Below are positions 1,111-14,485 of a stretch of 14,851 bases of DNA, one piece after another. The notes under the pieces were generated by a model. The model worked only from the letters and a program-made list of their open reading frames with translations. It ran no database searches and was not told the origin of the DNA. The stretch spans positions 1 through 14,851 of the forward strand of contig JACRGO010000145.1 in assembly GCA_016212295.1 (NCBI GenBank), given 5' to 3'. The position numbers were made by a program, and so were the translations under genes. Each line of letters starts with the position of its first letter. Positions within the stretch are counted from its first letter, which is position 1. This DNA comes from Nitrospinota bacterium (lineage in GTDB: Bacteria > Nitrospinota > Nitrospinia > JACRGO01).

Positions 1111-3102
1111 ATGAAATTTATTTATAGCTTTAAGAGCTTTAGGGCAAATCCTTTCTCCCTCCTCCAATTTACAATTTGCAATTTACAATCTACAATTTGC
1201 AATTCCCTTCGCCGTTCAGCGTTAATCCTTTTTATTTTCACCCTCCTTTCCCTCCACGGCCTCTTTATTGTCTCCTGCGCGGGCGAGATGACCACACGCG
1301 AGAAGGAAATGGCCATCCTCAGGATGTACTATAAGGAGGAAGAACTGTTTGTCGTCACTTCCACCAAGTCAGATAAATTCATTGACCAGGTGCCGGAGGA
1401 CATGATAACGGTCTCGGAGTCGGAGATCAGGGCCATTAACGCCCACACCCTGAGCGATGTCCTCTACCACGTGCCCGGGATCTCGCTGGACCTCAGGGGC
1501 GGCCCGGGGGCCGCTACCGTCCCCTCCATTCAAGGGTCGGATATGCGCCAGGTCCTGATAGTGGTGGACGGGGTCGTGCTGAACAACCTGGGGGCTTTCG
1601 CTGTGAACACAGGGAGCATACCGGTTAAGAACATCCGCAAGATAGAGATCATAAGGGGGCCGGCTTCATCCGTGTGGGGCTCTTCCCTGGGCGGGGTGAT
1701 CAACATCATCACAAAAGGGGACTGGCCCAACAAAAAACTTGAGGGCGCGGTCTCAGGCTCCTATGGAGAGGCGGACACAACCGACTCCTACGTGGAGGCG
1801 ACCGGCAAGGCGGGGAACATGAAGTATTATGTTGATTACAATAAACTCCGCACGAACGGGCTGACCGCCAACACCCCCAATGACGCGGACCACTTCTACA
1901 CAAAACTCAAATTTGACCTGTCCGACAATGTTGACCTCCTCTTCACCCTTGGCTACTTTAATGGAGACACTGGAGAGGGGGAAATGGTCCCTTATGATAT
2001 CTTCTTCCACAACTGGTATTCCCGCGTCTTTTCCACAATGGGCCTGGGCGTGGACCTGTGGCAGGGGGCGAGGTTCGATCTCGCCCTTAAGGAAATGGAG
2101 CAAAACTTTGAAAACGTTGATTTTCAGAGGAGCACAGGGACTGAAAACGCCAGGAATTTTCTCAAGGACAGCAACTATGGAGTTAACGCCAAGTTCTCCT
2201 TGGCGGCCGGGGCGCATCAACTGGTTACAGGCATGGACTACGACCACGGGCAATTGGAGTCCAATGCCTTCACTGAAGGAAACACCCACCTGCTGAAAAG
2301 ATGGGCCGCCTTCGTCAATGACACCATCAGATGGAATGACTTCACCTTTGTCCCCGGCTTCAGGTACGACCACGCGGACACAAGCGGAGGTTTTATGAGT
2401 CCTAGCATTGGGCTTACCTACCAGCCCATGGCCAGGCTCCTGCTCCGCTCCACGGTTGCAAGGGGTTTTAATATTCCGCCTCTTAACAGCACCTTTGGGA
2501 CCGGGCCTTGGTTTGTGCCCAATCCCTCCCTGACTATGGAAAAGATCCGGTCCTACCAGGTCGGGGTGGAGACCATCCTTGTTCCCTACGTCTGGCTCAG
2601 GACAGGGCTGTTCAGGCACGAGATAAGCGGCGCCATTACGTCAGAGACTCTCTCCGTGGACCCCTTCCAGTCGACCGTTGTGAATAAATCAAGCCAGAGG
2701 CGCCAGGGATTCGAGGCGGAGGCAAAGACCGTGAAGTTTTACAATATCACCCTGAACGCCGGGTTTGTATTCACTGACGTAAAGGACCTGGACACAAAAA
2801 CATACCTGGAGATGACGCCCAGGCACACAATTGACGTCGGGGCGCAATACAGCGACCCGCTTATCTGCCAGGCAACGCTCAAGGGGCATTATATATTGTG
2901 GACCCCCCATAGCCTTTTCCAGGGCAACTACGATTCCTTTATATGGGACCTGCACCTGTCCAGGGAGGTTTACGGAAGGGAATGGGGGGATGTGGAGCTC
3001 TTCCTCAGCGCCCGCAACCTCTTCAACTCCTCCCAATACCTTATAGAGTTTTGGAAGAACCCCGGGAGATGGGTGGAGGGAGGGGTGAGGGTGAATTTTT
3101 AG
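1111..3102 (+). CDS. TonB-dependent outer membrane receptor
   Basis: A 663-residue outer-membrane active transporter that would use TonB/ExbBD energy to import a scarce ligand. A hydrophobic signal core lies at about 35-55, ending in VSCAG, which fits signal peptidase I cleavage after SCA (a lipobox reading is also possible). A TonB-box-like stretch ELFVVTS is at 78-84. The plug domain (about 90-205) has the family hallmarks LSDVLYHVPGI, VVDGVVLN, IEIIRGPASSVWGSSLGGVINI. The rest is a 22-strand-type barrel ending in the expected terminal phenylalanine (GGVRVNF). Length is normal. The ATG has a ribosome site (GGGGAAGGA, 1092-1100). Oddly, residues 20-31 are encoded by an intergenic-type repeat, so the N-terminal extension before the signal peptide is longer than usual; no in-frame ATG exists between it and codon 60. 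The substrate cannot be told from sequence. Confidence 0.9.
   Translation: MKFIYSFKSFRANPFSLLQFTICNLQSTICNSLRRSALILFIFTLLSLHGLFIVSCAGEMTTREKEMAILRMYYKEEELFVVTSTKSDKFIDQVPEDMITVSESEIRAINAHTLSDVLYHVPGISLDLRGGPGAATVPSIQGSDMRQVLIVVDGVVLNNLGAFAVNTGSIPVKNIRKIEIIRGPASSVWGSSLGGVINIITKGDWPNKKLEGAVSGSYGEADTTDSYVEATGKAGNMKYYVDYNKLRTNGLTANTPNDADHFYTKLKFDLSDNVDLLFTLGYFNGDTGEGEMVPYDIFFHNWYSRVFSTMGLGVDLWQGARFDLALKEMEQNFENVDFQRSTGTENARNFLKDSNYGVNAKFSLAAGAHQLVTGMDYDHGQLESNAFTEGNTHLLKRWAAFVNDTIRWNDFTFVPGFRYDHADTSGGFMSPSIGLTYQPMARLLLRSTVARGFNIPPLNSTFGTGPWFVPNPSLTMEKIRSYQVGVETILVPYVWLRTGLFRHEISGAITSETLSVDPFQSTVVNKSSQRRQGFEAEAKTVKFYNITLNAGFVFTDVKDLDTKTYLEMTPRHTIDVGAQYSDPLICQATLKGHYILWTPHSLFQGNYDSFIWDLHLSREVYGREWGDVELFLSARNLFNSSQYLIEFWKNPGRWVEGGVRVNF
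1165..1204. repeat. AT-rich short tandem repeat inside a gene start
   Basis: Units of the type CAATTTACAATTTG are repeated about three times with variations. The same style of repeat occurs between genes elsewhere in the window, but here it is translated into the N-terminus of the TonB receptor. Confidence 0.75.
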
Positions 3103-3160: not shown

Positions 3161-3230
3161 AGGACGGAAGACAGAGTGGAAACACAAGTTCAAGCAATTT
3201 AAACGGTTTATAAGCAAGGCACAGGAAAAA

Positions 3231-3263
3231 AAATCTAAAATCTCAAATTTCAAATCTGAAATT
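3231..3263. repeat. AAATCTGAAAT-type repeat upstream of precursor peptide
   Basis: Degenerate repeats of AAATCT(A/G)AAAT and CAAATTT lie directly before the poly-G ribosome site of the small peptide gene. The last unit, AAATCTGAAAT at 3252-3262, is 33 nt from the ATG, exactly as at the regulator gene at 5064. Confidence 0.75.
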
Positions 3264-3284
3264 AAAGAAGGGGGGGGTGTATTA

Positions 3285-3380
3285 ATGGAAAGCAAGGGAA
3301 TTATTGTCATCGACCAGGGGATGGGGGAGTCCGTTATCGCGGGTTGTTGCCTAGGAGGAGGACTTATCAGAGTTGCTTAA
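3285..3380 (+). CDS. Candidate RiPP precursor peptide (31 aa)
   Basis: A 31-residue ORF. It starts MESKGIIVIDQG (1-12), reaches a Gly-Glu-Ser at 14-16 and ends with a small-residue, cysteine-rich tail: AGCCLGGG at 19-26, then Leu-Ile-Arg-Val-Ala-stop. The ATG follows a run of eight G (3270-3277) at 7-nt spacing, a usable ribosome site also seen before the regulator at 5064. A strong terminator follows within 60 nt and a radical SAM/SPASM maturase gene starts 204 nt downstream. Precursor, terminator, maturase is a layout known for RiPPs. I infer a leader of about 16 residues and a core containing Cys21 and Cys22, likely thioether or other C-X crosslink targets. It may belong to the group annotated as 'geopeptide', but that assignment is from memory. 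It could still be a chance ORF, since it is so short. Confidence 0.62.
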   Translation: MESKGIIVIDQGMGESVIAGCCLGGGLIRVA

Positions 3381-3433
3381 GCGCCAATTTTTTTTAGTTT
3401 CAAATAAAGAGTGAATTGAGTAATGATGCGTTG

Positions 3434-3472
3434 TTCCCGGTCCCGGATCACTCCGGGACCGGGGAGTTTTTT
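3434..3472 (+). terminator. Strong intrinsic terminator after the precursor peptide
   Basis: The arms CCCGGTCCCGGA (3436-3447) and TCCGGGACCGGG (3452-3463) form a perfect 12-bp stem with a TCAC loop, extended by a T-G and a T-A pair. Six T follow at 3467-3472. It lies between the peptide gene and the radical SAM gene, so partial read-through would give much more precursor than enzyme. Confidence 0.88.
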
Positions 3473-3533
3473 AACCCACACACATAAAAATTCCCCTCCT
3501 TGGAGGGGTGGCGCGGAGCGCCGGGGTGGGTTA
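3472..3533. repeat. Folded palindromic repeat element (copy 1)
   Basis: TAACCCA (3472-3478) pairs with TGGGTTA (3527-3533). Inside are two hairpins: CCCCTCC/GGAGGGG (3493-3508) and GGCGC-GGA-GCGCC (3510-3522). This makes a closed three-way structure. A second copy in inverted orientation lies at 14771-14810. It looks like a dispersed REP-like element. Confidence 0.8.
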
Positions 3534-3556
3534 CAAGAGTCAGTCAACACTTATCC

Positions 3557-3589
3557 TTGAACCCTGAACCCTGAACCGTGAACCATGAA
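3557..3589. repeat. GAACCCT heptamer repeat overlapping the maturase start
   Basis: Four to five units of TGAACC(C/G/A)(T) run in tandem. The last unit supplies the ATG at 3585 used as the start of the radical SAM gene. Confidence 0.8.
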
Positions 3590-4970
3590 AGAATCCCGCT
3601 ACATGAAAAAATACTCCATGCCGGATAAGCCGGGCGCCAGCCTCCTGTTCTCAACCAAGAAGGCGTCAAAGGTCCTGCTGAACCCCGAGTATATGGACAA
3701 GATGGACAAGGACCGGTTGGACCCCAAGGACAAGGCGACTCTTGCCGGCCTCGGCTTCCTGGTGGAGGACAGGCAGGAAGAGAAGAAGGAGATGGCCGGT
3801 ATCCTTGACAAGGCCAACCGCGAGCAGACCAAGGTGAATGCCGTGGTGGTCCTTAACCTCCAGTGCAACCTGGACTGCGTGTACTGCTTCGAGGGAAAGA
3901 TGAAGGGGAGCAGGTATATGACCCGGGACACGGCCGATCTGTTGGTGGAGTATTTCTCGAACAAGGCCTTGGCGGAAAAGAAACGGCTGGACATTACTTT
4001 TTATGGCGGGGAGCCTCTGCTTGCCCCAAGCTTCGCTCTTCTCAAGTCCATCTCGAAAAGATTAAGGGCGCGAGCCAGGGAAAAGGGGGCCGAATTCAGT
4101 TTTTTCCTTATCACCAACGGGACCCTTCTCACGCGAAAAAAGGTTGACGAGCTTGTTCCACTGGGACTCACCGGGGCGCAGGTCACACTCGACGGCCCCA
4201 GGGAGACCCATGACAGGGCCAGGCCCTACGTGAAAGGGAGGGGCTCATACAGCCGCATCATCCACAACCTCAAGGAGATAGACGGGAAGATCGAGCTCCA
4301 ACTCGGCGGGAATTACACGAAGGACAACTACAAGGAATTTCCGGGACTTCTGGATGATCTGGCGCGGGAAGGGATCACCCCGGACAAGGTGCATATAATG
4401 AGATTCTCCCCTGTGATGCAGACCAAGGGGGAGTTCTCCCTGCCGGATTTCCACGACGGGTGCATGTCCATCAATGAACCGTGGTTCAGGGAGGCGGACC
4501 TTTTCCTGAGGGAGGAGATTTTGAAGCGCGGCTACCCGATACCAAAGGTGAAGCCAGGCTCCTGCATGGTGGAGTTCACGAACGACTTCGTGGTCCATTA
4601 CGACGGGAGCATTTATAAGTGCCCGGCCTTTATCGGCAGGAAGGAATTGGCGGTGGGGAACCTGTGGGACGGGATCAAGGACTACCGGGAGTCCCACAAG
4701 CTTGGATACTGGAAAAAGGACGAGTGCCTGGACTGCGAGTATCTGCCTATCTGCTTCGGGGGATGCAGGTATATGAAGCTCATGCGGGACGGGAACTTCG
4801 ACGACGTGGACTGCAAGAAGGAGTATTATGACGCGGTCCTGGAATCGTACGTCCTCCAGGACATAAAGTACCAGGCAAGAGAAAAAGAAAGGGACAAAGG
4901 AACAAAGGGGCAGAGGGTGAAAGGCCAATGGCCAATGGCGAAGGGTAAAAGGCGGAAGACTGAAGGCTGA
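3585..4970 (+). CDS. Radical SAM/SPASM peptide maturase
   Basis: A 461-residue enzyme that should cleave S-adenosylmethionine at a [4Fe-4S] cluster to modify a peptide. The radical SAM motif is C94-NLD-C98-VY-C101, followed by the FYGGEPLL stretch, a GGEP-type SAM contact. The C-terminal SPASM domain holds the full seven-cysteine pattern C327-X13-G-X4-C346, C381-X2-C384-X5-C390-X3-C394 and C410, which would bind two auxiliary clusters. The N-terminal 90 residues (with YSMPDKPGASLLFST) could be the peptide-binding part. From memory it resembles proteins annotated as geopeptide radical SAM maturase. The likely substrate is the 31-residue peptide at 3285. The start is uncertain: ATG 3585 lies in a repeat and lacks a good ribosome site; ATG 3603 is an alternative. 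The last 30 or so residues (Lys/Arg/Gly-rich) are translated from repeat DNA and are probably not part of the enzyme fold. Confidence 0.93.
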   Translation: MKESRYMKKYSMPDKPGASLLFSTKKASKVLLNPEYMDKMDKDRLDPKDKATLAGLGFLVEDRQEEKKEMAGILDKANREQTKVNAVVVLNLQCNLDCVYCFEGKMKGSRYMTRDTADLLVEYFSNKALAEKKRLDITFYGGEPLLAPSFALLKSISKRLRARAREKGAEFSFFLITNGTLLTRKKVDELVPLGLTGAQVTLDGPRETHDRARPYVKGRGSYSRIIHNLKEIDGKIELQLGGNYTKDNYKEFPGLLDDLAREGITPDKVHIMRFSPVMQTKGEFSLPDFHDGCMSINEPWFREADLFLREEILKRGYPIPKVKPGSCMVEFTNDFVVHYDGSIYKCPAFIGRKELAVGNLWDGIKDYRESHKLGYWKKDECLDCEYLPICFGGCRYMKLMRDGNFDDVDCKKEYYDAVLESYVLQDIKYQAREKERDKGTKGQRVKGQWPMAKGKRRKTEG

Positions 4971-4979: not shown

Positions 4980-5010
4980 ACGGCCTTATATTTTATTTTT
5001 ATATTCCTTC

Positions 5011-5041
5011 AATCTGAAATTTGAAATTTGAAATCTGAAAT
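5011..5041. repeat. AAATTTGAAATCTG repeat upstream of the regulator
   Basis: The tandem units AATCTGAAAT, TTGAAATTTG and AAATCTGAAAT match the repeat before the precursor peptide (3231-3263). An upstream TTG at 5028 inside it could lengthen the regulator by 12 residues, but that extension looks like translated repeat. Confidence 0.75.
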
Positions 5042-6562: not shown

Positions 6563-7321
6563 ATGGCCCGTAGAATAGCTTTCATCAATGAGAAAGGAGG
6601 GACCGGCAAAACCACACTCGTCCTGAATATTGGAGACTATATAGCGAGGCAGGGACAGAAGGTGCTGCTGGTGGACATGGACCCGCAGGGGCACATAGGC
6701 AAGTCGCTGGGGGTGGATGTGCAATGCGCCAGGTATTCCATATTCGACGTCCTTATTGAAAAAACATTGCCGCTCAAGGACGCCATCCTTCCCACTTGCA
6801 ACGGTAATCTGAAGATCGTGGTTTCAAATAAGCTGTTGACCGATCTCACCATCAACATCGCGAAGGACGCGGACCGGCATATAAAGTTGAAGGAGAAACT
6901 GGATGAAGTGGAAGGTTTTGATTTTATTCTCATCGATTCCCCTCCTTCCCTCGGCCTGCTTACGGTCAACATCCTTCTGGCCGCGGAGGAGATAATCATC
7001 CCGGTGAGCATGACTTATCTGGCGCTTGACGGTTGCGCCGAGATCATCAGTTCCATAAACCTTGTCCGTAAAAATTTCGGCCATGAGGGCATTCATATTT
7101 CAAAGGTCATTCCCACGCTTTACCGGGACACGCCCCTGGCCAATGCCGTGTTGAACCGCCTGATGGCCCACTTTGGAGAAAAACTTTCCAAAACCGTGTT
7201 GAGATTTGATGACAAAATAGACCAGTCCCAAAGTTTTGGTAAAACGGTATTTGAATTCGCTCCCAATTCCGAAGGGGCTGAATTGTTAGCCAATTTGGGG
7301 AAAGAGGTGATGAACTTATGA
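6563..7321 (+). CDS. ParA/MinD-family ATPase, chemotaxis-linked (ParC-like)
   Basis: A 252-residue P-loop ATPase of the ParA group. The deviant Walker A KGGTGKTT is at 11-18 with signature lysine K11, the switch LLVDMDPQGH at 35-44 and Walker B FILIDSPPSLG with D125. There is no N-terminal helix-turn-helix, as in the small ParA type. No ParB or parS partner is present. Instead the gene overlaps the next one, a CheW-domain protein, by 4 bp (ATGA), which implies translational coupling. By analogy with Vibrio ParC, it probably positions the chemosensory array in the cell rather than segregating DNA. The ATG lacks a clear Shine-Dalgarno sequence, but MARRIAFINEKGGTGKTT is the normal beginning for the family. 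It is the first gene of the operon. Confidence 0.92.
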   Translation: MARRIAFINEKGGTGKTTLVLNIGDYIARQGQKVLLVDMDPQGHIGKSLGVDVQCARYSIFDVLIEKTLPLKDAILPTCNGNLKIVVSNKLLTDLTINIAKDADRHIKLKEKLDEVEGFDFILIDSPPSLGLLTVNILLAAEEIIIPVSMTYLALDGCAEIISSINLVRKNFGHEGIHISKVIPTLYRDTPLANAVLNRLMAHFGEKLSKTVLRFDDKIDQSQSFGKTVFEFAPNSEGAELLANLGKEVMNL

Positions 7322-8157
7322 GTCAACAAGATATTCTAGGCCGCGACCCGCTTAAGGCCGACAGGGACAGCATCTGGATGAAGCCTGGCGTCCAGGCGGC
7401 GCCTCCTCCGCCAAGGCCCGCCCAGCCCCAAGCCGCGCCCCAACAAACGCATTCAACTGGGAAGGAAAAGGACTACTCGAAGGTGGTGCTGGACGAAGAA
7501 AGCCCCGGCGCGGTTTCAGCGGCGCCCCCAAGCAGAAGCATGGTGAAGGAAGGGCCTCCCTTGGTCTCCACCGGAAAAACCGGGCAGCAACCCAAGGCCG
7601 AGGAGGCCGGCCCATCGCCGGCGAAGGCCCAGGCCGAAGCTATGGCTAAATCCCATGCGGCGAATCTCCCGCGTGAGGCCAAGGATGATGAGAAAGGCAT
7701 CCAGGAAACGGTCCAACTGATAGGGTTCAAGCTGGGAAAGGAATTTTTCGGAATACGCATCATTAACGTCCAGGAGATTATCCGCCACCAGGACATTACC
7801 ATGGTGCCCAGGACCCCTGAATTCGTGGAGGGGGTCATCAGTCTGCGGGGCAGGGTCATTCCAGTTATTAATCTAAGGAAGAGATTTTCCATGGACCTTG
7901 GCGACAGGACCAAGGAGACAAGGATTGTCATAGTGGAACTGGACTGCGGGACCGTGGGATTCATAGTTGACGCCGTGACGGAAGTCACCAGCATACCGAA
8001 GGCGTCCATTGACCCGGCGCCGCCCACGGCAACCGGGGTCAGCAAGGAATATATCCAGGGTGTGGGGAAGATGGAAAACAAGTTGATGATCATCCTGGAC
8101 CTGAACCAGGTCTTGAGCAGGGAGAGCAAGCAAAAACTGAAACAGATGGTTGTATAA
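7318..8157 (+). CDS. cheW: CheW-domain coupling protein with long Pro/Ala-rich N-terminus
   Basis: A 279-residue protein. Residues 1-131 are low-complexity, rich in Pro, Ala, Gln and Lys (for example APPPPRPAQPQAAP) and probably disordered. Residues 132-275 form a CheW domain: LIGFKLGKEFFGIRIINVQEII, RTPEFVEGVISLRGRVIPVINLRKRF, IVDAVTEV. CheW links receptors to CheA, and a normal CheW is only about 150-170 residues. A disordered arm plus CheW-like domain, coded right behind a ParA ATPase, recalls ParP of Vibrio, which binds both ParC and CheA. The arm would then be a tether, but this role is inferred from layout, not from residue identity. Since no other CheW is in the window, it may also be the main coupling protein. 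Confidence 0.92.
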   Translation: MSQQDILGRDPLKADRDSIWMKPGVQAAPPPPRPAQPQAAPQQTHSTGKEKDYSKVVLDEESPGAVSAAPPSRSMVKEGPPLVSTGKTGQQPKAEEAGPSPAKAQAEAMAKSHAANLPREAKDDEKGIQETVQLIGFKLGKEFFGIRIINVQEIIRHQDITMVPRTPEFVEGVISLRGRVIPVINLRKRFSMDLGDRTKETRIVIVELDCGTVGFIVDAVTEVTSIPKASIDPAPPTATGVSKEYIQGVGKMENKLMIILDLNQVLSRESKQKLKQMVV

Positions 8158-8161
8158 GAAA

Positions 8162-8307
8162 AGAGGCACAAAGGCACAAAGTAAAAAACATATCGTGGAT
8201 TGCGAAGCGCGATGTACAAACAATGGTGTACTTTGTGCCTTCTGCCTCTGTGCCTTTGTGCCTTTGCCCCTCAGTGCCTCTGTGCCTTTGCTCCTCTGTG
8301 CCTCTTT
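8162..8307. repeat. GGCACAAAG repeats in both orientations
   Basis: Direct units GAGGCACAAAGGCACAAAG (8163-8181) are followed by many inverted units of CTTTGTGCCT and CTCTGTGCC (8230-8307). The two orientations could pair into a long imperfect hairpin in the transcript between cheW and the HEAT gene. Confidence 0.8.
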
Positions 8308-8325
8308 CTATTTAAAGGCCAAACA

Positions 8326-10251
8326 TTGGAATCCTTAACCGACTCCCTTATTAATTTGAAAGATCCGGACCCCGCCAAGCGGCGGGAGGCCGTGGAAAAC
8401 CTTGGATCCCAATGCGGTCATGGGGCAATCCTGGCCTTGGCCGAATGCCTGGAAGACCCCAACCGCGGGGTCCAGCAGGCCGTGGCGGACGCCCTGATCA
8501 ACATAGGCGGCAGGGAAACAGTGGAAGCGGTTGTGTTTAAACTGGACCATGACTCCTCGGTTGTGAGAAATCTGGCCTTGGAAGTGCTGCAAAAGGTGGG
8601 CGGCCAGGCCACGGACCTCCTTGTCCCCCTCTTGAAGCGCCAAAGCAACGATTTACGAAAGGCAGTGGCGGACATCCTGGGAGAAACAGGAGACGCGTCC
8701 TCGGTCCCCTCTCTCGTGGACGCAGTGGATGATCCGGACGGGAACGTCCGGGCCGCAGCCATCGATTCCCTGGGAAAACTCAGGGACACAAGGGCCATAC
8801 CGGTCCTTGTCAAACTGCTGAAGGCCAGGGAAACGTGGATACAGTTCAGCGCGGCAGAGGCCCTGGGAAAAATCTGCGACAGGGAAACCATGAAGGTACT
8901 CGTCGAAAAATTGCGGCACTGCGATGAAATCACTGCCTTCTCCATTGTGGAAGCCTTGGGAGAGCTAAAGAGCAAGGACGCCGTGGGTCCCCTGGCGGAC
9001 CTTCTTCCGAAGGCTTCCCCTGCCCTGCGGAATTGCGTGATCAAAACCCTGCTCCTTATATCGGAGGACCATGGATACGAGATCATCAGCCGTCTCGGCG
9101 GCAAGACCCTTTCCACATGCATTATAGACGCCTTGGGGGATGAGGACCCGGAAGTGAGGGAAGCGGCCCTGAAGGCGCTGGGACACGTAAGCTCCGCCGA
9201 GGCCGCTGTCCCTCTCCTGGATTATGCCCTGATCGCGGACAAGGACGAGGACAAAATGGCCTTGCTGAGGGAAGCGCTGAAAAGGACCGGGGCCGGCAAA
9301 AAGTTTCAATCCGTTGTGGAAAACCACGAAAAAATACTCCTCCTATCGATACAGGCCCTTGGAGACTTAAAGGAGGAACCGGCCGTCCCTTCATTGATCG
9401 CCGCCTTCGGAGCGGCCTCCGCTCCCATCCGGAAGGCCATAGTGCAGGCCCTCGGCAATTTCAAGACCGAGAACTCCTTTGATTTGGTTGTCGAGGCCCT
9501 TAACGACGTGGATTCCAATGTGAGAAAGGAGGCGATTTTTTCCCTGGGCAAACAGGGGTTCCCGGAGTCGGTGGAAATCGCGTTCTCCTTTCTGGATAAG
9601 GAACCTCATAAGGACATCAGGGACAGGGCTGTTGACTCCCTCCTGAAAATTTACAGGAGCGGGACCAGGAAGGAGGAAATTCTCAAGGGATTCATCCAAA
9701 GGCTTTCCTCCGAGGACGCGTCCTTCAGGGAATTGTGCGTGGGCGCCATCGGGAAAATCGATTTCCCGGAAAAAATAAAGCGTCTGGAATCGGCCCTGGA
9801 GGACCAGGAATGGAGGGTCAGAAACATGGCTGTCCATTCCCTGGGCGCTTTGGAGCCTGACCCGATGATATTTCCCCTTTTAAAAAAGGCGCTCTCGGAT
9901 GGGAGCGAAAACGTACGGATATCGGCCGTCCAAATGGTTTCCAAATACGAGGGGGAAGACGCGGTGGAGGTTTTGATTTCCAGCCTTAATGACCATAGCG
10001 CCTGGGTCCAATTCCATGCGGCTGAAGCCTTGGGTCTAAAGAAGGAAAAAAAGGCGGCCCCTTTCCTCCTGGCCTTGCTTAAAGACGGAGACGGTCCTCA
10101 GACAATAGCGGCCATTAAAGCCTTGGGGGAAATCGGCGACCGGCGGACCCTGGAAGCCATCAAGCCCTTTGCTTCCCATGAAGACCTCGAAATCAGCCAT
10201 GCCGCGGGCCAGGCCCTGGCGCGACTACAGACAACAGCCATTGGCCAATAG
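8326..10251 (+). CDS. HEAT-repeat protein of the chemotaxis operon
   Basis: About 641 residues made almost wholly of HEAT/PBS-lyase-type helical repeats, roughly 17-19 units of 30-38 residues. Recurring cores include VQQAVADALINIGG, LRKAVADILGETGD, NVRAAAIDSLGKL, IQFSAAEALGKI, EVREAALKALGHV, NVRKEAIFSLGKQG and WVQFHAAEALGL. Such solenoids are protein-binding scaffolds, here presumably for a chemotaxis protein, because the gene lies between cheW and cheR. I prefer the TTG at 8326 (MESLTDSLINLKD, with AAAGG 11 nt upstream). Earlier in-frame starts (TTG 8200, ATG 8212) would add a Cys/Leu-rich stretch that is just translated repeat (LCLCAFAP). The C-terminal Ile-Gly-Gln-stop comes from an ATTGGCCAAT repeat. 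No catalytic motif is visible. Confidence 0.86.
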   Translation: MESLTDSLINLKDPDPAKRREAVENLGSQCGHGAILALAECLEDPNRGVQQAVADALINIGGRETVEAVVFKLDHDSSVVRNLALEVLQKVGGQATDLLVPLLKRQSNDLRKAVADILGETGDASSVPSLVDAVDDPDGNVRAAAIDSLGKLRDTRAIPVLVKLLKARETWIQFSAAEALGKICDRETMKVLVEKLRHCDEITAFSIVEALGELKSKDAVGPLADLLPKASPALRNCVIKTLLLISEDHGYEIISRLGGKTLSTCIIDALGDEDPEVREAALKALGHVSSAEAAVPLLDYALIADKDEDKMALLREALKRTGAGKKFQSVVENHEKILLLSIQALGDLKEEPAVPSLIAAFGAASAPIRKAIVQALGNFKTENSFDLVVEALNDVDSNVRKEAIFSLGKQGFPESVEIAFSFLDKEPHKDIRDRAVDSLLKIYRSGTRKEEILKGFIQRLSSEDASFRELCVGAIGKIDFPEKIKRLESALEDQEWRVRNMAVHSLGALEPDPMIFPLLKKALSDGSENVRISAVQMVSKYEGEDAVEVLISSLNDHSAWVQFHAAEALGLKKEKKAAPFLLALLKDGDGPQTIAAIKALGEIGDRRTLEAIKPFASHEDLEISHAAGQALARLQTTAIGQ

Positions 10252-10360
10252 TCATTTGTCATTGATAAGCAGGAAGAGGCCCAATTGACGATTGACGAAT
10301 CACGAACCACGAACCACGATTGACGAATCACGAATCACGATTGACCACTGACCATTGATC
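10236..10360. repeat. ATTGGCCAAT and GACGAATCAC repeats
   Basis: The palindrome ATTGGCCAAT (10239-10248) spans the stop codon of the HEAT gene. From 10284 follow degenerate units such as TTGACGAATCACGAACCACG and CACGATTGACC. Unit length varies and there are no unique spacers, so this is not a CRISPR array. Confidence 0.8.
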
Positions 10361-10381
10361 AAGATAAAGCGGGAATAAGAA

Positions 10382-11227
10382 TTGGAAGAACGCAACCTGG
10401 AAATGAGCCTGGAGACCTTTAAAAATTTAAGGGACCTGATCTACGAAAAGAGCGGCATATATTTCGTGGAAAATAAAAAATACTTTCTTGAGAACCGCCT
10501 CTCCAAGAGGGTCCTGGAGAGAAACCTTAAAAGCTTTGAGGAGTATTATTTTTTCCTGAAATATGATCCCAGGAAGACGCAGGAATACCCTTTCCTCTAC
10601 GATTCCGTCACCACTAATGAAACCAGTTTTTTCAGGAACCCCCCGCAATTGGAGGCGTTTGAGAATTTTGTCCTGAAAGAGGTAATGGATAAGGCCAGGA
10701 ACCCGGGGCCGAAAAAATTAAGAATACTAAGCCTGCCCTGTTCAACCGGGGAGGAACCATACACATTGAGCATGATATGTCTGGAGAAGAAGCTCCCGGC
10801 CCAGGGCTGGGCGCTGGAGATTCAGGCAGGGGACATAAGCCCGGGGACCCTGGACTCCGCCCGCAAGGGCATATACGGCAAGAACTCAGTCCGTAACACG
10901 CCTCCTTATTACCTGAACAAGTACTTCACCCTCTCGGGAGAAAATTATATAATCAAGGACGAGGTAAAAAGGTTTGTGCAATTTGATTGCGTTAATTTGG
11001 TGGATTCGAGGAAAATAAAAATTTTCGGAAATTTTGACGTGATTTTTTGCAGAAATGTGCTAATCTATTTCGATGAAAAAATAAAGAGAAAGGTCGTTTC
11101 AGACCTCTACGACGCCTTGAAGCCGAACGGTTTTCTTTTTATAGGACACTCGGAATCGCTTCACAACATTTCAAGGGCGTTTAAACTGGTGAACTTCAGC
11201 CGGTCCCCCATATACAAAAAAGAGTGA
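10382..11227 (+). CDS. cheR: Chemotaxis protein methyltransferase CheR
   Basis: A 281-residue SAM-dependent enzyme that methylates glutamates on chemoreceptors during adaptation. The N-terminal helical domain begins FKNLRDLIYEKSGIYF and carries NRLSKRV and the VTTNETSFFRNP motif. The Rossmann domain has LSLPCSTGEEPYTLSM (SAM loop), GDISPGTLDSARKGIYG, then DVIFCRNVLIYFDE and LKPNGFLFIGHSESL, all typical of CheR. The length is normal. It starts with TTG at 10382, with GGGAA 7 nt upstream; ATG 10403 is possible but has no ribosome site. The stop overlaps the GTG of the next gene by 4 bp (GTGA). No methylesterase CheB is present in the window to oppose it. Confidence 0.95.
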   Translation: MEERNLEMSLETFKNLRDLIYEKSGIYFVENKKYFLENRLSKRVLERNLKSFEEYYFFLKYDPRKTQEYPFLYDSVTTNETSFFRNPPQLEAFENFVLKEVMDKARNPGPKKLRILSLPCSTGEEPYTLSMICLEKKLPAQGWALEIQAGDISPGTLDSARKGIYGKNSVRNTPPYYLNKYFTLSGENYIIKDEVKRFVQFDCVNLVDSRKIKIFGNFDVIFCRNVLIYFDEKIKRKVVSDLYDALKPNGFLFIGHSESLHNISRAFKLVNFSRSPIYKKE

Positions 11228-11610
11228 ACCCCATGCCGTCAAATATCCTGGTAGTGGAAGACTCAAGGACGACGAGGAAATTTCTCACGGTTGTCCTGAA
11301 AGGGGACGGATACCATGTGATCACGGCGGAAAACGGCATTGAGGCCCTGGAGAGGTTGAGTTCCATTAATGTCGACGCAATAGTAACGGATCTCAACATG
11401 CCCCAGATGGACGGCCTTGAATTTATTCGCGCAATAAGAGAGAATGATGATTACTCAAGAATCCCGATTCTTCTTCTGACCACGGAAGGAGAAGAGCGCG
11501 GCAGGAAACAGGGGCTGGAGGCCGGGGCAACCGCCTATATGGCAAAGCCCATTGAACCGGAAGTTTTCTTGGGCGCTGTAAAAAAACTGATAACAGTTAT
11601 TGGCCAATGA
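11224..11610 (+). CDS. Single-domain response regulator (CheY-like, first copy)
   Basis: A 128-residue receiver domain with no output domain. Key residues are E12/D13, phospho-acceptor D56 (IVTDLNMPQMDG), T86 and K108 (YMAKP). It starts at GTG 11224 overlapping cheR, or at ATG 11233. Its TTEGEERGRKQGLEAGA stretch and its Glu-Asp rather than Asp-Asp pair set it apart from the second CheY, and resemble receivers that act as phosphate sinks or with non-flagellar systems. Its exact target is unknown. The C-terminal Ile-Gly-Gln-stop is coded by the same ATTGGCCAAT repeat as in the HEAT gene. Confidence 0.92.
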   Translation: MNPMPSNILVVEDSRTTRKFLTVVLKGDGYHVITAENGIEALERLSSINVDAIVTDLNMPQMDGLEFIRAIRENDDYSRIPILLLTTEGEERGRKQGLEAGATAYMAKPIEPEVFLGAVKKLITVIGQ

Positions 11611-11611
11611 C

Positions 11612-11634
11612 TTCGCCCAAAGGGCGATAAATTC
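11612..11634. repeat. Small hairpin repeat CGCCC-AAA-GGGCG
   Basis: TTCGCCCAAAGGGCGATAAATTC lies between the two cheY genes. A near copy, CGCCCGAAGGGCGTTAAGTTC, is at 14583-14603. There is no T-run after it, so it is unlikely to terminate transcription. Confidence 0.5.
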
Positions 11635-11664
11635 AAAACAAAACTTTTTTTGGAGGATTGCGCT

Positions 11665-12045
11665 ATGCCGGCGGACACAAATATGAAGATTTTGATCGTG
11701 GATGATTTCGCCACCATGAGAAAAATTGTCAGGAACCAATTGGGCCAACTGGGTTTCAAGAACCTTGACGAGGCTGATGACGGCGCCACTGCGCTGCCAA
11801 AGGTCATGTCCGGAGGAGTGGACTTCATAGTCGCGGACTGGAACATGCCCAAGATGAGCGGACTTGACCTCTTGAAGGCCGTGCGCGCCGATGAAAATAC
11901 GAAGAACATTCCCTTTCTCATGGTAACAGCCGAGGCGTTGAAGGAAAACATCATCGCGGCCATTCAAGCGGGTGTTTCGGATTACGTGGTCAAGCCCTTC
12001 ACGGCCCAGGTCCTTGAAGAAAAAATAAATAAAATTTTTAAATAG
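11665..12045 (+). CDS. cheY: Chemotaxis response regulator CheY
   Basis: A 126-residue single receiver domain. The residues match canonical CheY almost one for one: D13, D14, phospho-acceptor D58 ([13 protein letters not shown]), T88 (LMVTAEA), Y107 and K110 (DYVVKPFTA). It also has the [12 protein letters not shown] helix-1 sequence of motor-binding CheY, so I infer that CheY-P acts on a flagellar switch. ATG 11665 is chosen because GGAGG (11652-11656) sits 8 nt before it; an upstream in-frame TTG at 11650 overlaps that site. The stop codon is 9 nt before cheX, and its final G begins the poly-G ribosome site of cheX. Confidence 0.95.
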
Positions 12046-12054
12046 GGGGTATAG

Positions 12055-12513
12055 GTGAAGGCTGAATATGTCAATCCTTTCTTAAACGGCACGGTAAATG
12101 TTTTGAAGACCATGGCGTTCGTGGACCCAAAACCGGGCAAGCCTTATGTGAAACAGGACAAGAAGGCGGTGGGCGATATCTCCGGAGTTATCGGCCTGAC
12201 AGGCTCGACCAAGGGGGCTGTTGTCGTTTCCTTTTCCAGGGAATGCGCCATGAAGGTCGTGTCCTCCATGATGGGGGAACAGTATACCGATCTTACCGAT
12301 GAAGTCCGGGACGCGGTGGGGGAAATCACAAACATGGTTTCAGGGGACGCCAGAAGGTCCCTGGCCGAATTGGGCGCTAATTTTGAAGCAGGCATTCCAA
12401 CGGTGGTCGTGGGCAAGGGGCACGAAATAACCTCAATGGGCAAAGGCCCTTGCCTTGCCATACCTTTCAAGGTGGATAATTTCGACATGACCGTTGAAAT
12501 CAGTTTCGAATAA
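12055..12513 (+). CDS. cheX: CheY-P phosphatase CheX
   Basis: A 152-residue protein of the CheC/CheX/FliY phosphatase group. The active-site motif E90-IT-N93 is seen in VGEITNMVSGDARRSL, with one such motif as in CheX (CheC usually has two). The N-terminus MKAEYVNPFLNGTVNVLKTM and the GLTGSTKGAVVVSFS strand are also typical. It should remove the phosphate from CheY-P and so reset signalling, replacing CheZ. The gene starts at GTG 12055 behind five G (12045-12049). The 4-nt spacing class and tight packing behind cheY suggest co-translation with its substrate. Confidence 0.92.
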   Translation: MKAEYVNPFLNGTVNVLKTMAFVDPKPGKPYVKQDKKAVGDISGVIGLTGSTKGAVVVSFSRECAMKVVSSMMGEQYTDLTDEVRDAVGEITNMVSGDARRSLAELGANFEAGIPTVVVGKGHEITSMGKGPCLAIPFKVDNFDMTVEISFE

Positions 12514-12557
12514 TACCGTGGAACTATAGTATCTCCGGGGTAGAAACGCGCCATTAA

Positions 12558-12628
12558 TCATCGCAAAGACGCAAGCAAAGAGCGCAAAGTTTTGGCCTCT
12601 CTTTGCGTCCCCTGCGCCTGCGGTGAAA
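12558..12628. repeat. CGCAAAGACGC-type repeat with hairpin
   Basis: Units of CGCAAAGACGCAAGCAAAGAGCG are followed by inverted units. GCAAAGAG (12575-12582) can pair with CTCTTTGC (12599-12606). It fills most of the 154-nt gap between cheX and cheA. Confidence 0.75.
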
Positions 12629-12667
12629 TAAGTTCATTTTTTTCATGATGGGGAAGGTCTTCTTCTC

Positions 12668-14485
12668 GTGGATGAATTAGAGGAAATAATTCAGGATTTT
12701 TTAGTTGAGACCGAGGAGCTGATCCAAGGGGTCGACCAGGACCTGCTGGATTTGGAAAAATCCCCGGACGACTTTGAACTCCTGAACAAGGTGTTCCGCT
12801 CCGTCCATACCATAAAGGGCGCGGCCGGGTTTTTAGGTTTTAACCAGCTGGTCACCCTGGTGCATAACACAGAAACCCTTCTAAATAAACTCCGGCTGGG
12901 CGAGCTTAGAATAAACTCCGCCATCAGTGACGCTGTCCTGGAATCCATAGACCTCGTAAAGATTATTCTCTCCGATATCAAGGAAAACAAGAAGGAAAAG
13001 GAAATCAATCTTACCGGTATCCTCTCCACTCTGGAGGGCCTGACCTTGGGCGTTGTAGTGCGCGCCGAAACAAAAGCGCCGGCGCCAAAGCCGAGGCCCA
13101 GGGAGGAAGTCCCCCAAAAACCAAAAGAAGCCAGGATAGAAGCAAAAGAGGAGCCAGTAGAGGCGCCGATGGAGCAAGCCGCGGAGCCGGACTTTCAGGC
13201 GCCGGTCCAGCGCGAACCGGCGGCTTCTCAAAGGCCCCCGTCCCAGCCCCAGCAAAAAACCATCCAGGAAAAAGCCCCTGCCTCCGCGGCGTCCAAGGAC
13301 CTCTCCGAGCAGACGATTCGCGTGGAAACCACTAAACTCGACCATGTCATGAATCTCGTGGGCGAACTGGTCCTGGGGCGAAACCGCCTGACCAATTTAT
13401 TGAGCAGATTCGAAGCCAGGAGAAATGGAAACGAGGACCTCGCCTCGACCCTTTCCGAGGTCACGGGTTTCATCAACTTGGTGACCTCGGACCTTCAATT
13501 GGCGGTGATGAAGACCCGCATGCAGCCGATTAAAAAGGTGTTTGGGAGGTTTCCGAGGCTGGTGAGGGACTTGGCCCGTGAGTTGAATAAGTCCGTGGAC
13601 CTTATATTGCGCGGAGAGGAAACGGAGTTGGACAAGTCCGTCATTGAGCAGATCAATGATCCGCTGGTCCATATCATAAGGAATTCCATCGACCACGGGA
13701 TCGAATCAAAGGAGCAAAGGCTGCTTTTGGGAAAACCGGACACAGGGACCATCAGGATGTCCGCTTATTACGAGGGAAACCACATAGTAATAGAGATCGA
13801 GGACGACGGCAAGGGAATTGATCCGGCCAGGGTGGCCGCCGCGGCCCTGAAAAAAGGGGTCCTGTCCCAGCAGGAGATCCAGGGAATGGATGAAAAGGAG
13901 ATCATCAATCTTATCTTCGCCCCGGGCTTCAGCACCGCGGAAAAGGTGAGCGATGTTTCCGGCAGGGGCGTGGGAATGGACGTGGTCAAGACCAACATCA
14001 CCAAGCTGAGCGGCATGATAGATCTCGTTTCCAAGGTGGGCATCGGCTGCACCCTTTATATCAAGCTGCCCCTCACCTTGGCCATAATGAACGCCCTCAT
14101 CGTCACCGCCGGAGAAGAAACCTTCGCCATCGCCCTGTCTTCAGTCGTGGAAATCACCAGAATCAAGACGGAGGAAGTGGAGTTCATAGACCAGAAGGAA
14201 GTGATAAAACTCAGGAACGCGGTTCTTCCCTTGATACGGCTGAAGGACCTCTTTGATCTCAAGGACAGCCCGGCCTCCGCTGATATGATCTATGTCGTTG
14301 TCATAGGCATCGCCGAGAAACGCATAGGCATCGTCGTGGAAAAATTGAAGGGCCAGGAAGAGATAGTCATTAAATCCATGGGAGATTACCTTTCCGAGGT
14401 CCCAGGCATCGCCGGCGCAACGGTCGGCGGCGACGGCAAGGTGATGCTCATCCTCGATATAGCGGCCATCTTTGAAAAAATCTGA
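12668..14485 (+). CDS. cheA: Chemotaxis histidine kinase CheA
   Basis: A 605-residue kinase that autophosphorylates and passes phosphate to CheY. The Hpt domain (1-105) has H47 in SVHTIKGAAGFLGF. Residues about 135-212 are a Pro/Ala/Glu/Lys linker in place of a recognisable P2 CheY-binding domain. The dimerisation domain follows (TIRVETTKLDHVMNLVGELV, about 217-290). The ATPase domain has an N box with N339 (IIRNSIDHGIES), G1 DDGKGID (379-385), FAPGFSTAEKVSDVSG, and G2 GRGVGMD (432-438). A CheW-like P5 domain ends the protein (from about 465; LPLTLAIMNALIV through GDGKVMLILDIAAIFEK). GTG 12668 is supported by GGGAAGG at 12651-12657. Without P2, CheY would dock less tightly, which suits a system with two CheY proteins. 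Confidence 0.97.
   Translation: MDELEEIIQDFLVETEELIQGVDQDLLDLEKSPDDFELLNKVFRSVHTIKGAAGFLGFNQLVTLVHNTETLLNKLRLGELRINSAISDAVLESIDLVKIILSDIKENKKEKEINLTGILSTLEGLTLGVVVRAETKAPAPKPRPREEVPQKPKEARIEAKEEPVEAPMEQAAEPDFQAPVQREPAASQRPPSQPQQKTIQEKAPASAASKDLSEQTIRVETTKLDHVMNLVGELVLGRNRLTNLLSRFEARRNGNEDLASTLSEVTGFINLVTSDLQLAVMKTRMQPIKKVFGRFPRLVRDLARELNKSVDLILRGEETELDKSVIEQINDPLVHIIRNSIDHGIESKEQRLLLGKPDTGTIRMSAYYEGNHIVIEIEDDGKGIDPARVAAAALKKGVLSQQEIQGMDEKEIINLIFAPGFSTAEKVSDVSGRGVGMDVVKTNITKLSGMIDLVSKVGIGCTLYIKLPLTLAIMNALIVTAGEETFAIALSSVVEITRIKTEEVEFIDQKEVIKLRNAVLPLIRLKDLFDLKDSPASADMIYVVVIGIAEKRIGIVVEKLKGQEEIVIKSMGDYLSEVPGIAGATVGGDGKVMLILDIAAIFEKI

Follow-up and report, generated by a model that had tools for sequence, protein, structure and literature searches.

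A geopeptide-like Cys-Cys peptide gene between a TonB-dependent receptor and a radical SAM maturase in Nitrospinota

The geopeptide family is already in NCBIfam, with TIGR04229 for the peptides and TIGR04280 for the maturases; the open-access literature and few subscription journals that were searched held no paper using geopeptide names in this sense, nor did the open part of that literature offer a function for geopeptides. We analyzed a stretch of 14,851 nt from a Nitrospinota bacterium (contig JACRGO010000145.1, hereafter the window), in which a maturase scores above the TIGR04280 cut-off and a small peptide is recognised by TIGR04229 alone; what differs is that the peptide stays below the family cut-off and that there is a receptor–peptide cassette with the maturase set apart. 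CteB, the maturase of SCIFF (thermocellin), is a thioether-forming enzyme whose substrates are six-Cys peptides. It is the best relative of the window maturase both by sequence and by Foldseek, and shares with it the SPASM domain and an N-terminal leader-binding-like region, but the identity is only about 20% and the window enzyme reaches 106.3 bits against TIGR03974, below the cut-off of 425. PapB of the ranthipeptides makes Cys-Asp thioethers, as evidenced by a −2 Da change (PMC9413430). The window enzyme is a related SPASM maturase (141.8 bits against NF047865, below the cut-off of 340), but the window peptide has neither Asp nor Glu C-terminal to its core cysteines.

Receptor genes beside small precursors are known from two other systems. 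In methanobactin operons, a TonB-dependent transporter is genetically linked to a small Cys-containing precursor (PMC3621798). The window shares this linkage, and some MbnA cores have Cys doublets as well, but methanobactin is made with MbnB/MbnC whereas the window encodes a radical SAM enzyme. In some lasso peptide clusters, a TonB-dependent receptor adjoins the RiPP genes (PMC11006600), with the difference that these clusters use lasso chemistry, an isopeptidase and other enzymes. The new element is a peptide–receptor cassette with its maturase apart, which the open literature that was searched does not describe.

The maturase and the small Cys-Cys open reading frame

The radical SAM/SPASM enzyme (3585–4970, + strand) matched TIGR04280 with 624.7 bits (cut-off 400), residues 1–430 aligning to model positions 1–428 and all other families scoring far lower; by this assignment it is a geopeptide-type maturase. 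The initial annotation had described a radical SAM protein with an intact seven-cysteine SPASM domain, which was confirmed in an alignment of six sequences, where the Cx3Cx2C cysteines C94, C98 and C101 of the motif CNLDCVYC (residues 94–101, 3864–3887) and all seven SPASM cysteines (327, 346, 381, 384, 390, 394 and 410; domain at 4563–4814) are invariant. CteB was the nearest solved relative by sequence (E 5.5e-33), came first when the predicted model was searched with Foldseek, and was among the tied best VIA-align 2 rows (Z 22.1, 372 residues, rmsd 4.3). The CteB alignment starts at residue 4, or at residue 2 in entry 5wgg, and thus covers the leader-binding-like part (3585–3764), predicted as strand-strand-strand-helix-helix in a model with a mean pLDDT of 71.7 and a poorly modelled SPASM region. 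Wider searches with the maturase gave, in genome contigs, nothing closer than distantly related radical SAM enzymes of Bacteroidota and, by tblastn against plasmids, only identities below 30% among the matches listed; viral contigs yielded no close maturase, nor any receptor. Two radical SAM enzymes on another contig of the window's genome (C124) look like heme-biosynthesis types by sequence and were rejected as peptide maturases.

Upstream of the maturase lies the putative precursor gene (3285–3380, + strand), encoding the 31-residue MESKGIIVIDQGMGESVIAGCCLGGGLIRVA. As first described, the ORF has its own G-rich ribosome-binding site, AGAAGGGGGGGGTG (3266–3279), immediately 5′ of the ATG, and a Gly/Cys-rich C-terminus with the core motif AGCCLGGG (residues 19–26, 3339–3362), in which the cysteines are residues 21 and 22. 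The sole NCBIfam match was to TIGR04229, at 13.6 bits (cut-off 30). To place it among relatives, 77 genomes of the class were examined, including the window's own genome (G000) and that of a second species of the same genus (G002). Three intact peptides were found in G002, namely MEISGMEVLDSGIEDQHGTILGCCYGGPVLPPS (contig C251), MELEGMVVFDQGLTEADGVLGCCGAGPVALFA (C522; a ten-residue N-terminal extension is possible) and MEIQGMEIFNLGMKEKDGTILGCCDGYPVVIPV (C419). An HMM built solely from these three ranked the window ORF first of 487 window frames, with an E-value of 2.9e-4 window-wide, or about 0.07 when scaled to the genome. Alignment of the four peptides revealed E2, G5, G12, G20, C21 and C22 as invariant, so the MESKGIIVIDQG-like leader and CC core that the initial annotation expected in relatives do recur in all three. 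In all pairwise comparisons pN was below pS, with small counts.

On the strength of these intact, residue-sharing relatives and of pN < pS in every pair, the ORF is judged to be a real gene, as had been claimed. A profile of the four peptides recovered its members at E 4e-20 to 2e-14 (inflated, since the members built the model) and gave no credible match beyond them in the 77 genomes; the two genomes with credible peptides are the same two, G000 and G002, whose maturases exceed the TIGR04280 cut-off. Three of the four peptides matched TIGR04229 and no other family, all below cut-off (13.6 bits for the window, 20.3, and 14–15 bits). The earlier ‘geopeptide’ assignment therefore holds for the enzyme, well over its cut-off, while the peptide is geopeptide-like and the name is probable for it; the RiPP reading is supported by the TIGR04280 maturase, by TIGR04229 as the only peptide family and by the conserved relatives. 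TIGR04229 matches outside G002 were discarded as noise by score and context, and other GCCxGG pattern matches in G000, G002 and sister genomes, with counts near those of a reversed-pattern control, were not geopeptide-like ORFs.

Receptor–peptide cassettes and a maturase elsewhere

Missing from the initial annotation was that a TonB-dependent outer-membrane receptor gene (1111–3102, + strand; Pfam Plug and TonB_dep_Rec_b-barrel) belongs to the peptide unit as its upstream partner. The receptor is 38–45% identical to five receptors of G002; three of these precede an intact peptide gene and a fourth precedes a degenerate one. The distance from receptor to peptide is 182 nt in the window, 69 nt on C251, 519 nt on C522 and 26 nt on C419, so that all four intact peptides lie 26–519 nt downstream of a receptor of one subfamily, each on a separate contig. 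The fifth, degenerate copy is located 23 nt behind the first receptor of a tandem pair on C104; at the DNA level it can be aligned to the peptide genes of C251 and C419, but its stop has been lost and its frame enters the next receptor. This copy was missed by a protein HMM built without C104 and was identified by DNA alignment and position. The second receptor of the pair is the only one in G002 without a peptide behind it. At locus L090 (2705–690, − strand), loss of the stop has joined a geopeptide gene in frame to the N-terminal end of the TonB receptor that follows.

The strong terminator reported 3′ of the window peptide was borne out, with a 14-pair stem (3434–3465) followed by a T-run (to 3471, + strand) and folding as a hairpin, and comparable hairpins also occur 3′ of the peptides on C251, C419 and C522. 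Two points had gone unremarked: the terminator splits the peptide gene from the maturase gene, and the sole other close maturase, on contig C532 of G002, has no adjoining peptide. The latter is what the initial annotation had named as refuting its proposal, a homologous maturase without a small ORF upstream, and it holds for the G002 enzyme; against it, three intact peptides are encoded at other sites in G002, all of them following a receptor gene. Tetranucleotide correlations between C532 and the receptor–peptide contigs were 0.82–0.89, and composition gave no sign of contamination among the G002 contigs, though that genome is rated 6% contaminated. As all intact peptides lie behind receptors and the G002 maturase is elsewhere, the conserved unit is receptor–peptide–terminator, a linkage seen in two species of one genus; and as that maturase is on another contig with no peptide adjacent, one maturase probably acts in trans on several cassettes in G002. 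Precursors can accordingly sit far from their maturase, and searches centred on maturases alone would miss such genes.

These arrangements bear on a quite different explanation, in which the small ORF would be a cysteine-sensing leader peptide and ribosomes stalling on its pair of Cys codons would govern the terminator and hence maturase expression. The order in the window, a short Cys-Cys ORF, then a strong terminator, then a radical SAM gene, is what such a device would look like, but in G002 the peptide–terminator pairs come after receptor genes and no maturase lies behind them, leader residues and not Cys codons alone are conserved, and the peptide is recognised by TIGR04229, leaving this explanation highly improbable. 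With the terminator in place and no sigma-70-like promoter found between peptide and maturase in the window, expression of the maturase may depend on read-through or on a promoter that escaped recognition. Part of the terminator–maturase interval (3478–3530) belongs to a dispersed repeat, which matches G000 at 43 other places and has no match in G002. Intergenic gaps at 3220–3270 and 5010–5040 contain short A/T-rich repeats of the kind AAATTTGAAATCTGAAAT, and insertions of A/T-rich repeats may account for the wider receptor–peptide gaps in the window and on C522.

Possible chemistry and role of the peptide

We propose, with a probability of roughly 0.55, that the locus encodes a geopeptide-type RiPP with thioether links at its Cys-Cys core, that the receptor encoded upstream has the mature peptide as its ligand, and that one maturase serves several such cassettes. 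Translated downstream of the TonB-dependent receptor gene, the small ORF would give a precursor whose leader, conserved as ME..G..V.D.G, would be bound by the maturase; one or two cysteine thioether links would be made at the core; the mature peptide would be released after presumed leader removal and export; and it would be bound or imported by the receptor encoded directly upstream, as a self-made metal-carrier or signal. In G002 a single maturase would serve the several cassettes in trans.

The likely reaction, judging from CteB and PapB, is formation of a thioether from a core cysteine to a residue nearby, and the two adjacent cysteines could carry two links, one link and an unlinked thiol, or a metal-binding site. 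Because the window core lacks aromatic residues, an aromatic cyclophane would be an unlikely product. Neither G000 nor G002 yielded a C39 leader-cleaving exporter, which counts against the proposed scheme. That the upstream receptor recognises the mature peptide appears the most economical reading by analogy with methanobactin operons and some lasso clusters. It would give geopeptides a first function open to testing, with a candidate ligand encoded beside each receptor; if true, a ligand would be assigned to orphan receptors and a genetically encoded set of peptide–receptor pairs would be at hand. The nearest solved structures to the window receptor are Cir (colicin I receptor, the best by sequence) and BtuB, a kinship that does not name the ligand; an Rfam search gave no match, and so no cobalamin riboswitch to indicate one; and the structure model of the window receptor was too poor for use (pLDDT 53.7).

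The strongest rival, which we nevertheless regard as rather unlikely, is that the peptide is a geopeptide RiPP whose link to the receptor is historical or co-regulatory, through a shared promoter, and that it acts elsewhere, for instance in intracellular or periplasmic redox or metal-binding. The lack of a recognisable exporter is in keeping with this, as are the distant receptors that have no peptide and the finding that receptor and peptide identities across all pairs are uncorrelated (Spearman 0.18). Against it, adjacency in four intact cassettes on different contigs, together with a degenerate fifth, exceeds what inheritance of one operon would require to be retained. Among the distant receptors, one on plasmid pSD of Geobacter anodireducens (L199, 8884–10743), annotated as hypothetical, is 30% identical, and no geopeptide was detectable near it.

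Comparison of the C251 and C419 cassettes, the closest pair, yielded a dN of 0.29 for the peptides, whereas that of the receptors was 0.08, with dS similar in both (0.64 and 0.71, respectively); thus, the peptide changes faster than the receptor. Such rapid diversification of the core would suit a bacteriocin or toxin directed against relatives with the same receptor, the receptor being its entry route, and the colicin I receptor is indeed the best solved relative by sequence; Cir kinship, however, is found in many receptors for siderophores and B12, purifying selection still acts on the peptide, and neither an immunity gene nor an exporter could be recognised next to the cassettes, so that a bacteriocin seems improbable. 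Returning to the peptide as ligand of its receptor, we tentatively extend it to a cassette family in which each TonB-dependent receptor would be co-encoded with its own radical-SAM-crosslinked Cys-Cys peptide, matured in trans by one enzyme, the peptides being diversifying self-made metal carriers or signals.

Sister maturases and neighbouring genes

Sister maturases were observed in five genomes of the class (L058–L062), with about 180–294 bits to TIGR04280, below the cut-off. They share another conserved small ORF, unlike the window peptide, directly downstream (L058, 6819–6893; L059, 1844–1924; L060, 476–390 on the − strand; L061, about 4220–4300; L062, 839–922). It is exemplified by MKLQIVKKGDKSKQGKTLYCVWLV and has one Cys close to its C-terminal end; the four that were scanned had no NCBIfam match. 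Sister maturase and single-Cys ORF probably constitute an undescribed sister RiPP family.

The genes annotated around the window peptide are the receptor, the radical SAM enzyme and regulators. Divergent from the receptor is a sensor-kinase fragment with sCache_4 and HAMP domains (41–853, − strand), cut near the contig end, which shares 22% identity (E 2e-7) with the kinase that diverges from the receptor–peptide pair on C251. A divergent sensor kinase beside the receptor in both places would fit sensing, weak as the similarity is, and the kinase is possibly part of receptor regulation. At L063 (3907–6187), a G002 receptor–peptide pair has divergently oriented genes for an ABC substrate-binding protein and a histidine kinase on one side, and a gene for an AraC-type response regulator on its downstream side. 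Further along the window, downstream of a sigma-54 response regulator, a chemosensory cluster extends from 6563 to 14485, comprising a ParA-like ATPase, CheW, a HEAT-repeat protein, CheR, and CheY-like and CheA-like proteins.
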